A DNA stretch of 37,039 bases from Prochloron sp. SulCav_FS08_3_32_3330 (GTDB lineage Bacteria > Cyanobacteriota > Cyanobacteriia > Cyanobacteriales > DYNF01): NCBI GenBank assembly GCA_020721205.1, contig DYNF01000040.1:1-37039 (forward strand). The letters are read 5' to 3'. The notes below the pieces were generated by a model. The model was not told where the DNA came from and searched no databases. It saw nothing but the letters and a program-made list of their open reading frames with translations. The translations under genes and the position numbers were made by a program. How positions within the stretch are numbered: the stretch's first letter is position 1; every line of letters begins with the position of its first letter. This document shows, piece by piece, positions 5,871-33,458 of this stretch.

Positions 5871-5882
5871 TTATCAATGCTT

Positions 5883-5934
5883 GTAGTTGGGCTTTAGCCC
5901 TAATTTACTTATTGTAGGGCTAAAGCCCAACTAC
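5883..5934. repeat. Palindrome, GTTGGGCTTTAGCCC family
   Basis: A perfect 20-bp inverted repeat has arms 5883-5902 (GTAGTTGGGCTTTAGCCCTA) and 5915-5934, separated by 12 bp. It fills the gap between the CHASE2 ATPase and the DUF928 gene. In RNA it forms a very strong hairpin, without a following T-run. Relatives occur at 13933-14119, 20622-20677 and 27573-27705. Confidence 0.8.
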
Positions 5935-5957
5935 GAACTTTTAACTAATATAAAATC

Positions 5958-13932: not shown

Positions 13933-14119
13933 TAGAATTGTTTGTTGTTGCGCTTTAGCGCTATAAATATAATTTTTAGAATTGTTTGTTGTTGTGCTTT
14001 AGCGCTATAAATATAATTTTTAGAATTGTTTGTTGTTGTGCTTTAGCGCTATAAATATAATTTTGTGGTGCTAAAGCACTATAACTATAATTTTGTGGTG
14101 CTAAAGCACAACAACGAAC
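13933..14119. repeat. Three 44-bp tandem repeats with inverted partners
   Basis: A unit beginning TAGAATTGTTTGTTGTTG and continuing CGCTTTAGCGCTATAAATAT occurs at 13933, 13977 and 14021 with a period of exactly 44 bp. Each unit holds a GCGCTTTAGCGC-like mini palindrome. From 14065 to 14119 the inverted form GGTGCTAAAGCAC occurs twice, 30 bp apart, ending in CAACAACGAACC, the complement of GGTTCGTTGTTG. Thus the cluster as a whole can fold back on itself. It belongs to the same family as 5883-5934, 20622-20677 and 27573-27705. Confidence 0.85.
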
Positions 14120-20509: not shown

Positions 20510-21434
20510 TGTAATTATGATTATTTTGATGAAAAGTCAATTAATAGTTTACCTTAAAACCACCTCGAAATGGATAATCCTAACTAAGTAGATGGTCATA
20601 AATAAAGTAACAAAAAAAGATGGTTCGTTGTTGGGCTTTAGCACTACCGTATAGGGCTAAAGCCCAACAACGAACTTTTTTATATATGACTATATTTATG
20701 ACCACCTACTTACTATCATCAAAAATATTGATTAATTTTTTCGGCATTGCTGAATCGAGGTATGATTTGAAAATATTTCTTTGCGTTCTTTGCGCCTTTG
20801 CGAGATTTTATCATCCCTTAATTATTTTTAGACGCAAAACAAAAGCACTCAAGTCTTACTCTCTAGTTGATTTCCTCTATTCAGTCGAGATTATACAGAG
20901 TAGCCGTATTTTTATTCAAAATACTAACCTTAACTCCCTTTCTAACTACTTTAGGAAATATCTATTTTCAGAACGAGTGCTATTGTTTTGGAACGAGACA
21001 GATTGTAAATGAAACAGCTTTTTTACCTCTTTTTTAAGCTAACTTTTTTAAGCTAAATGAACTTACTCTTAATCGTAAACTAAACTAAACTCAAATTAAC
21101 TTTTAAAAATCTAATTTTATTAATTTTACTCAATAAAACTAACTTTGATTTAGTTAACTGATTTAGTCAACTTTGGCTGTTGTCTCTGCCAGGGAAGCTT
21201 TCTTTTAGCTTCAATTATCAATTTACCACCTTTCCCAAAAAGATCAAGCGTTTGTAATAAAACTTGACAAACAAAAGGAGTTAAACTTATTTTTTCTTTA
21301 ATTTATGTTAAGTTCCTACCATTTTTAAAGGTTTAAACCCACTACAAGTATAACATTAATATACTACAAAAAGATTAGAGAATAGAAAATTTTTTTGTGT
21401 AATAATTAAAACTAATCCACCATTTTAATGATCC
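20510..21434. other. 925-bp gap without a supported gene; palindrome at 20622-20677
   Basis: At 20622-20677 is a GTTGTTGGGCTTTAGC palindrome with two near-perfect arms (one mismatch), the same family as 5883-5934. Around 20778-20806 there is a TTTGCGTTCTTTGCGCCTTTGCG string, a phrase often seen between cyanobacterial genes. At 21016-21054 a short TTTTTTAAGCTA element occurs twice. GAAGCT and AGCTTC at 21195-21213 form a 6-bp hairpin. I see no coding signal I trust and no known RNA gene. A long leader or a small RNA for the downstream ferredoxin is possible. Confidence 0.55.
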
Positions 21435-23174: not shown

Positions 23175-23831
23175 TTAAAACAGAGGATTTTTTCGTTCAA
23201 TTAAAATTGGTTTAATGCCCACAGCCTTAGCACCCTCATAATCTTCTTTCAAACTATCTCCAATATGCCAAGCTTTTTGAGGAACACAATTATGTTTTTC
23301 CAACGCCGCCAGAAAAATCCGAGGATCCGGTTTTGCTGAACCTGTATAAGAGGATATAGTAATACTCTGAAAATATTGACTTAAACCTAAAAGCTCTAAA
23401 ACCGCATATAAACGAGTATCAAAGTTAGAAATAACTCCTAATTCTACGCCTATTTTATGCCATTGTTTAAGAGATTTAACACTATCGGGATAAATTTCCC
23501 AAGGATCCGCCGTGGCAAAATGGGCATAGATCCGAGTAAATAATGCCGTAAAATCGGGAATTTTCTCAAAAACCCCCACTTCTCTAAAAGTTTTTTCAAC
23601 AATATCCTTCCACCATTTATATTCAGCTTCCGGTATTTGTTGAGAGTCCACACCGGAAAATACTGGACGAGGGGCAGTTTCCCAACTTTTTTTAAAGGCT
23701 TTATTGATCTGATCGGCTGATAGATCTAAGCCTATTTCCTTCGCAAAAGAGGCATAAACACCTCCTACCGTGCCTTTAATCCCAAATAAAGTGCCAACGG
23801 CATCAAAAAATATTACTTTTGGTTTTTCCAT
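23175..23831 (-). CDS. HAD-family hydrolase
   Basis: The 218-residue protein is a haloacid dehalogenase-like phosphatase of the HDHD3-like kind. Motif I is FFDAVGTLF (nucleophile Asp10; the usual second Asp is Val12), motif II VISNFD, motif III the Lys in SAKPDPRIF, and motif IV WHIGDSLKEDYEGAKAVG. The alpha-helical cap lies between about 20 and 90. Loss of the second Asp of DxDGT is common in this subgroup but changes the general acid, so whether it is an efficient phosphatase is uncertain. Substrate is unknown. Its stop lies 43 bp after the heptamer array. Confidence 0.85.
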   Translation of the reverse strand: MEKPKVIFFDAVGTLFGIKGTVGGVYASFAKEIGLDLSADQINKAFKKSWETAPRPVFSGVDSQQIPEAEYKWWKDIVEKTFREVGVFEKIPDFTALFTRIYAHFATADPWEIYPDSVKSLKQWHKIGVELGVISNFDTRLYAVLELLGLSQYFQSITISSYTGSAKPDPRIFLAALEKHNCVPQKAWHIGDSLKEDYEGAKAVGIKPILIERKNPLF

Positions 23832-23865: not shown

Positions 23866-23895
23866 TGTAGAGACGTTTCATGAAACGTCTCTACA
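23866..23895. repeat. TGTAGAGACGT palindrome, target of the MITE
   Basis: A 30-bp perfect palindrome has arms TGTAGAGACGTTTCA and its complement. It is the second copy of the family at 8030-8083, with another core. The MITE at 23900-24082 inserted at its right end: the 9-bp duplication CTACAATAG begins with its last five bases. Confidence 0.85.
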
Positions 23896-23899
23896 ATAG

Positions 23900-24082
23900 C
23901 AGGGCGTTTTCATTCTTTTTTTTCCAACAGATTAAAATCTGTTGCTACCTAAACAAAACCCGTCTTCACGGGTTTTATGATTAAATATTAACTAATATTA
24001 AAAAATTCAACCTGCGTATGCCTGTTTTGCTTATGTAGCAACGGGTTTAAACCCGTTGCCTCCCGAGAATGAAAACGCCCTG
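23900..24082. mobile_element. MITE copy 1 (183 bp) with 9-bp target duplication
   Basis: The ends are 17-bp perfect inverted repeats, CAGGGCGTTTTCATTCT at 23900 and its complement ending at 24082. They are flanked by CTACAATAG on both sides (23891-23899 and 24083-24091), a clean 9-bp target duplication. The inside contains four smaller palindromes, including CAACAGATT/AATCTGTTG, AACCCGT/ACGGGTT and GCAACGGGTT/AACCCGTTGC. No coding sequence is present, so it must be moved by a transposase elsewhere. It ends 11 bp before the ndbB stop. Confidence 0.9.
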
Positions 24083-24093
24083 CTACAATAGAA

Positions 24094-25293
24094 TTATAAA
24101 TTTTGAATTTTTAAAGGTTTAATCAACCAATTTATTCCTACATTTAATTGATGTTGCCAAGTAGGAAAACGATATAAATAAATTAAACGTCTGGTTAAAT
24201 GAGCGAATAAACCATCTAATTGTATCCCTAAACCGCTTAAACTAGCATTATTAATTCCTAAAGTCATCATTTCTCCTAAATTATAATAACGAAAAGGAAG
24301 TAAAGGTTTCTGATTAATCGTTGCCCAAATATTCCATGCACAATAATCTGCTTGTTGTAAAGCAACTTGAGCGGTAGGAGGTATATTTTTAAGAGAATTA
24401 TCTTTAGTATCTTCTAAAAATGAGCTATCTCCAAGGGCAAAAATCTGCTCATTTTCTAATACTTGTAAATAATTATTAATTAATAACTGTCCTGAATGAT
24501 GATGAGATAAAGGTAAATCCTTAATTAAAGGTGATACTTGACTTCCCACAGTCCATAACAATAAATCTACAGGAATAGGATCTATTTTTCCTTTATAATC
24601 TAAATTAATTTGATCTTCTTGTCTACTTTCGATTTCCGTTTCTAAATCTAACCACACTCCTCTTTCTCTTAAGGCTTTTTCAGCAATTTTACGGTTATAA
24701 CTATCGGCATTTTTTAAAATTTTATCTCCTTTTTCAATAATTCTAATCCGTCCTTTTTTTCCTAGTTGTTCTGCTAATTTACAAGCTAATTCTACCCCGG
24801 TATAACCTCCGCCTATAATCGCAATTCTAATTTTTTCAGGGTTAGATTTTTCTAATAAACGTAATTTATTTTTTAACTTTTCTGCATCAGTTAAATTACG
24901 AAAATAAAGAGCATTTTCCTTAACTCCTTTAATTTGAAAATCAGAAGAAATCCCGCCTAAAGCAATCACTAATTTAGTATAATCTAAATTACCATTTTGC
25001 CTGAGTTTTATTTGATCATGATTAAGATCAATTTCAGTAATTTCATCTTGATAAAAATTAATATTAGTATCTTTTAATAATTCAGAGAAAGGGGGAGCGA
25101 TTTCCCAACTTTCCATTTCTCCCGTTACCATTTCATAGAGTAAAGGGGTAAAAACACAGCGATCGCCCTGATCAATGAGGATTATTTCCGGTTTTGTTTC
25201 CATTGCCCAAGGAAGTTGACTCAACCGCAAAGCGGTATATAAGCCACCAAAACCTCCACCTAAAATACAGATTTTTTCTTTTGAGTTTGTCAT
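24094..25293 (-). CDS. ndbB: Type II NAD(P)H dehydrogenase NdbB (demethylphylloquinone reductase)
   Basis: This 399-residue flavoprotein has GGGFGGLYTALRLSQLPW at 12-29 (FAD Rossmann), 'FTPLLYEMVTGEMESWEIAPPFSELL', a second nucleotide site IAIIGGGYTGVELA (NAD(P)H) and FALGDSSFLED near the C-terminus. It matches the cyanobacterial NdbB/plant NDC1 group, which reduces demethylphylloquinone so that it can be methylated to phylloquinone, the photosystem I quinone; this assignment is from memory of sequence pattern. There is no EF-hand. It stands alone; a MITE sits just past its 3' end and a repeat module lies upstream. Confidence 0.82.
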   Translation of the reverse strand: MTNSKEKICILGGGFGGLYTALRLSQLPWAMETKPEIILIDQGDRCVFTPLLYEMVTGEMESWEIAPPFSELLKDTNINFYQDEITEIDLNHDQIKLRQNGNLDYTKLVIALGGISSDFQIKGVKENALYFRNLTDAEKLKNKLRLLEKSNPEKIRIAIIGGGYTGVELACKLAEQLGKKGRIRIIEKGDKILKNADSYNRKIAEKALRERGVWLDLETEIESRQEDQINLDYKGKIDPIPVDLLLWTVGSQVSPLIKDLPLSHHHSGQLLINNYLQVLENEQIFALGDSSFLEDTKDNSLKNIPPTAQVALQQADYCAWNIWATINQKPLLPFRYYNLGEMMTLGINNASLSGLGIQLDGLFAHLTRRLIYLYRFPTWQHQLNVGINWLIKPLKIQNL

Positions 25294-26926: not shown

Positions 26927-27110
26927 GAGGGCGTTTTCATTCTTTTTTTTTCAACAGGTTAAAACCTGTTGCTACCCAAACAAAACCCGTCTTTACGGGT
27001 TATATGATTAAATATTAACTAATATTAAAAAATTAAACCTGCGTAGGCAGGTTTTGTTTATGTAGCAACGGGTTTCAACCCGTTGCTTTTTGGAGAATGA
27101 AAACGCCCTG
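26927..27110. mobile_element. MITE copy 2 (184 bp)
   Basis: The right end AGAATGAAAACGCCCTG (ending at 27110) is identical to copy 1; the left end reads GAGGGCGTTTTCATTCT from 26927, with the first base changed. The interior is highly similar to 23900-24082. A 16-bp direct repeat, CTCCCACAGGCGAGGG, occurs at 26916-26931 and at 27111-27126, so it overlaps the left end: an imperfect or enlarged duplication compared with the 9 bp of copy 1. It inserted in a CCCCTCTCCCACAGGCGAGGGGG-type repeat (26892-26931), common in cyanobacteria. It is downstream of petD. Confidence 0.85.
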
Positions 27111-33121: not shown

Positions 33122-33171
33122 AAAATTATTGCCATCTTCAGTCATACTGGGGGTGGCAATAATTTTTTTTT
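33122..33171 (+). terminator. rplT terminator
   Basis: AAAATTATTGCCA (33122-33134) and TGGCAATAATTTT (33154-33166) form a 13-bp perfect stem with a 19-base loop, followed by T's to 33171. This is a standard intrinsic terminator for rpmI-rplT. Confidence 0.9.
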
Positions 33172-33413
33172 AGTCGCTTTAGCAGACTTTTGCTGTTAGC
33201 AATAAAATTTATTTCATTGCGATATTAAAACTGAAAGCTTTTAACCCGCATCGCAATAAATTTTAGATCAAAATTTTAAAATTTAAGTCGCTTTAGCAGA
33301 CTTTTGCTGTTAGCAATGAAATTTATTTCATTGCGATATTAAAACTGAAAGCTTTTAACCCGCATCGCAATAAATTGACGATGCTAATAGCAAAAATCTG
33401 CTAAAGCGATTAA
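33172..33413. repeat. Duplicated 91-bp fold-back element
   Basis: Two 91-bp direct copies, 33172-33262 and 33286-33376, differ at one base. Each opens with AGTCGCTTTAGCAGAC and contains an inner ATTGCGAT/ATCGCAAT inverted repeat. At 33380-33413 the start of the unit is repeated in inverted form (GCTAATAGCAAAAATCTGCT...), so copy 2 with this tail forms a fold-back of about 130 bp. No coding sequence is seen. Confidence 0.85.
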
Positions 33414-33458
33414 TTCCTGTTAGAAACTCAAGAGTTTTTAGCAACGGGTTGAAACCCG

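Follow-up and report, generated by a model that had tools for sequence, protein, structure and literature searches.

Several kinds of short non-coding repeats have been described in cyanobacteria. In Microcystis aeruginosa PCC 7806, a 187-bp type I MITE has been attributed to transposases of the ISL3 family (PMC11448079), Nezha is cited as a further cyanobacterial MITE (Zhou et al. 2008, as cited in PMC10969869 and PMC3733652), and the genome of Anabaena sp. 90 carries 147 MITEs without an assigned IS, plus one IS of the ISAs1 family (PMC3542288). Small palindromic interspersed repeats have also been reported, as GTAG-tagged REPs (PMC3733652) and by Elhai et al. 2008, as cited in that work. 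A literature search that missed most subscription journals returned no cyanobacterial MITE linked to ISAs1, and a search for the terminal inverted repeat (TIR) studied here returned no description, its matches being irrelevant.

The element analyzed below lies in a window of 37,039 nt (the whole stretch of DNA under study), which is contig C98 of a draft genome (4.73 Mb in 209 contigs). It resembles the 187-bp MITE of M. aeruginosa in size, hairpin fold, high copy number and in having a TIR and duplication that match an IS family, but the TIR and the IS family themselves differ, and the duplication there is 8 bp. With Nezha, known here by citation, it shares the status of a cyanobacterial MITE. 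Small palindromic repeats are of the same general kind as the palindromes inside and beside the element, which occur alone, but the element differs from them in being bounded by TIRs and in duplicating its target. The nearest counterpart is the cyanobacterial CAGGGCNGTTTCATTCT-end subgroup of the ISAs1 family (PF13808 + PF01609 / NF033564), whose TIRs fall within one or two mismatches of that of the MITE and whose duplications (9–10 bp) and CT...AG-like targets are similar; these ISs are about 1.4 kb long and encode a transposase, whereas the MITE is 183 bp long and does not. We consider it highly probable that the element is a non-autonomous MITE moved by an ISAs1-family DDE transposase, and that the reuse of its targets gives rise to arrays.

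Structure and insertion site of the element

The initial annotation had described a 183-bp non-coding element with 17-bp inverted ends and a 9-bp duplication, nested at the edge of another palindrome, and closer inspection bears out this description. The span 23891–24091 consists of the element and its two 9-bp duplications, the TIR is perfect, and the flanking 9-mer occurs just twice within the window, at the two element flanks, with the left copy overlapping the last 5 bp of the host palindrome (Table 1). The element contains no ORF that reaches 80 aa; its size below 500 bp, lack of coding capacity, TIRs, constant-length duplication and dispersed copies are those of a MITE. On one side it is bordered by the stop codon of an oxidoreductase gene, on the other by the start of a gene for a HAD-family hydrolase. 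It is strongly self-complementary; folded as single-stranded RNA, its minus strand reaches −75.2 kcal/mol (z = −11.5). An Rfam search gave no match near a gathering score, and a terminator scan revealed no terminator-like site.

Table 1. Coordinates of the MITE, its parts and its surroundings in the window.
Feature	Position	Strand	Remark
HAD-family hydrolase gene	23175-23831	minus	
Host palindrome TGTAGAGACGTTTCATGAAACGTCTCTACA, 30 bp	23866..23895	.	entered at its edge by the element
Left target-site duplication CTACAATAG	23891..23899	+	
MITE, 183 bp, non-coding	23900..24082	+	best other copies 98% identical
Left TIR, 17 bp, CAGGGCGTTTTCATTCT	23900..23916	+	followed by a T tract ('PT' end)
Subterminal palindrome CAACAGATT-AAAATCTGTTG	23925..23945	.	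arms covary across copies
Central palindrome AAAACCCGT-CTTC-ACGGGTTTT	23955..23976	.	
Subterminal palindrome GCAACGGGTTTAAACCCGTTGC	24038..24059	.	arms covary; also found alone in the genome
Right TIR, 17 bp, exact reverse complement of the left TIR	24066..24082	-	preceded by CTCCCG ('CGG' end)
Right target-site duplication CTACAATAG	24083..24091	+	
Pyridine-nucleotide-disulphide oxidoreductase gene	24094-25293	minus	
Second MITE copy	26927..27110	+	91% identical; duplication CTCCCACAGG(C), 10-11 bp

Palindromes of the host type were found in 8 distinct copies, 4 of them with an element at the edge, in a sample of the genome that is biased to element loci. Joining the flanks in the window across the element gives a sequence that aligns at 86%, over 85 columns partly of low complexity, with another copy of the host palindrome. 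At a second insertion (L010), the joined flanks align gap-free and at 94% with a copy of the same repeat that is uninterrupted. Both are weaker tests of an empty site, as they compare paralogous repeats. A sister strain was sought through a neighboring gene, whose relatives from named organisms were only 51–59% identical and thus too distant.

Copies and target duplications across the genome

The TIR has 454 matches in the genome at up to two mismatches, compared with 2 for a reversed control pattern, which suggests roughly 200 elements, and probably more than 200, a figure estimated from the TIR matches. This search for the 17-bp ends had been called for in the initial annotation, and the many copies that it returned dispose of the objection that the element has no others. 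From 61 loci in sampled DNA of the same genome we extracted 75 TIR-bounded elements, 71 of which measure 181–190 bp (most of them 181–187 bp) and the others 131, 167, 320 and 796 bp; dozens of MITE copies are near full length. Most loci carry target duplications that resemble CTNNNNNAG and usually measure 9 or 10 bp (8 or 11 bp in occasional cases); the perfect ones have C followed by T at one edge and A followed by G at the opposite edge.

The draft assembly is interrupted at these repeats, as might be expected if the repeat were a product of chance or of assembly and not a mobile element, but this explanation is refuted by the unique flanks at each locus, by perfect duplications of at least 8 bp, which occur at 54% of the 61 loci but at 1% once flanks have been exchanged at random between loci, and by hairpins whose arms covary, and we regard it as practically negligible. 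The subterminal palindromes maintain their pairing across copies, with 83 compensated cells compared with a shuffle mean of 28, and 31 broken cells compared with 95, a pattern compatible both with selection on the hairpins and with conversion between their arms.

The interior had further been described as composite, in agreement with our observation that the inner palindromes occur alone in the genome and the inner modules recur as short repeats elsewhere. The inner palindrome CAACGGGTTTAAACCCGTTG is present at 25 places; among the 15 inspected, 3 are inside intact elements, some adjoin degraded ends and the majority are not close to any such end. Of 391 genomes of the order, 80 contain repeats that match short stretches of the interior, and the full-length 183-bp body was found in none of these genomes other than the host's own, with two candidates scored per genome.

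Other repeats accompany the MITE. The second copy in the window lies downstream of petB/petD-like genes. Elements with the same TIR and another interior (L209:1001-1320 on G000:C22 and L167:357-398 on G000:C118; one complete copy is 320 bp long) apparently form a second MITE family, and such elements are sometimes found one spacer from a 183-bp MITE. A palindrome-rich repeat (TGAAATAAATTTCA...GTCTGCTAAAGCGACTAA) is present several times at 33170–33415 of the window, and elsewhere this repeat serves as a MITE target and forms part of the 320-bp element. Palindromic repeats of the GGGCTTTAGCCC / GTTCGTTGTTG type, frequent MITE landing sites at other loci, are found in the window at 5881–5938, 14028–14085 and 20615–20704.

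ISAs1-family insertion sequences with similar ends

A guess in the initial annotation that the ends recall ISAs1-like elements gains support from nearly the same TIRs and 9–10-bp duplications on ISAs1-family ISs and from remnants of such ISs in the host. Cyanobacterial ISAs1-family ISs end in CAGGGYG/CAGGGCNG-TTTCATTCT and are flanked by duplications of 9–10 bp. The duplication of the element, also 9–10 bp, falls in the range of the family, which we take to be 8–10 bp, and its ends are common to ISAs1-family ISs. A full-length IS with the same ends and a transposase, proposed at the outset as one of the things to look for, exists in other genomes of the order with a nearly identical TIR, but no intact transposase of this kind is present in the host assembly. 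These complete ISs measure 1.39–1.43 kb, and the MITE TIR differs from theirs by one or two mismatches, none being a perfect match. In G055, ISs of 1388–1389 bp carry the TIR CAGGGCGGTTTCATTCTC and 9–10-bp duplications, and their protein matches NCBIfam NF033564 transpos_ISAs1 at 4e-72 as well as PF13808/PF01609; in G006, pieces of an ISAs1 transposase adjoin CAGGGTGTTTTCATTCTC; the 9-bp duplications CATGGAGAG and CTTTTCAAG flank ISs of roughly 1.42 kb in G318 and G074, and several more distant ISs have CAGGGCTGTTTCATT-type ends. The IS ends in other genomes lack the full 170-bp palindromic module.

In the host, the curated ISAs1 model has 0 matches, and the closer G006 protein as a query revealed only decayed remnants. 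One, on contig C4, is a 796-bp copy with the same TIRs at both ends (tblastn 7e-14, 8 stops) and without a target duplication, an end of which aligns at 73% across 173 columns (E 2e-27) to the greater part of the MITE; this copy may be a parent of the MITE or may have arisen when a decayed IS fused with a MITE next to it. On C138, a transposase fragment with a weak match (E 0.15) directly precedes the end CCAAAAAGC+TIR, and the terminal 26 bp of that end (CAGGGCGTTTTCATTCTCCAAAAAGC, read inward) are identical to a common MITE end subtype. At least 5 contigs stop about 50 bp inside elements with the C138-type IS-like end. Since several contigs break inside elements, an intact transposase may yet be present in the genome, and longer, near-identical copies were probably left unassembled at the contig breaks.

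The lack of an intact ISAs1 transposase in the assembly would also fit a different history, in which another IS family moves the MITE and the host ISAs1 remnants merely acquired these ends through recombination. In several genomes of the order, however, ISAs1 transposases come with near-identical TIRs and the same duplication length, and the sole host transposase that matches the DDE_Tnp_1 model is truncated, unrelated and without these TIRs, leading us to reject it as a candidate and to consider a mover from another family improbable.

Under the preferred reading, an ISAs1-family transposase, possibly still acting today, would bind the 17-bp TIRs, cut out or copy the element and insert it at a CTNNNNNAG-like target with a stagger of 9–11 bp, thereby duplicating the target. 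The direction of descent would be from IS to MITE: the element most likely derives from the ends of a local IS of ISAs1 type, and small palindromic repeats common in cyanobacteria may have been present in the non-coding part of that IS. A further element could then enter the duplicated target beside a resident copy, which would yield arrays of the form element-T-element-T.

Arrays of elements separated by one target duplication

In the draft assembly, from which the array structures are taken, elements are often adjacent with one spacer of 9–11 bp between them, and in most complete arrays this spacer is the flanking duplication. All 24 junctions between two 183-type MITEs are head-to-tail, a count that leaves out the mixed-family or partial cases L043, L045, L054, L167, L223, L227, L228 and L233. 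Array neighbors are more alike than random pairs (mean 0.94 vs 0.89; 0 of 20,000 random draws as high), and a few are 98–100% identical. The uniform orientation and this likeness are what would be expected if arrays arose purely by tandem duplication, through unequal recombination or slippage between the 9-bp duplications, with later mutation and gene conversion. Against such an origin, members of most arrays have their closest relative at another place in the genome, some neighbors carry different end subtypes, and in mixed arrays different element families lie one spacer apart; at the start of C202, the spacer CTTTATAAG separates an IS-like end, a MITE of 185 bp and an element of a third kind from one another. 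Because neighbors are rarely nearest relatives and three kinds of element share one target at C202, the arrays point to repeated insertion into one target rather than simple duplication, and we view a purely duplicative origin as possible but rather unlikely. Identical or near-identical neighbors in L032 and L098 suggest that tandem duplication happens as well.

Two arrays depart from the simple pattern. A MITE pair at L016:1334-1710 (G000:C7) has an intact outer duplication, CTACAGATG, but its two members are separated by a foreign sequence, TTAACAATAG, as would result from transposition or recombination of a dimer into this place. In a four-copy array at L032:1501-2260 (G000:C146), the spacers read CTTCAAAAG except for one in reverse-complement form (CTTTTGAAG), which suggests an inversion between facing TIRs.

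How orientation would be kept during repeated insertion is a separate matter. Asymmetry of the target sequence was considered as a cause and was not supported (p = 0.35). We tentatively speculate that an element already in place directs later insertions to the duplication at its own flank and sets their orientation, in which case transposition itself would produce head-to-tail arrays of different elements spaced by exactly one duplication.

Taken at the strength argued above, the link would assign a very abundant family of cyanobacterial repeats to one specific family of transposases, ISAs1, in a case that shows small palindromic repeats to be able to ride on a transposon. The repeats are also one visible cause of contig breaks in this draft genome, and their array pattern poses a concrete question about how ISAs1-type transposases choose their targets.
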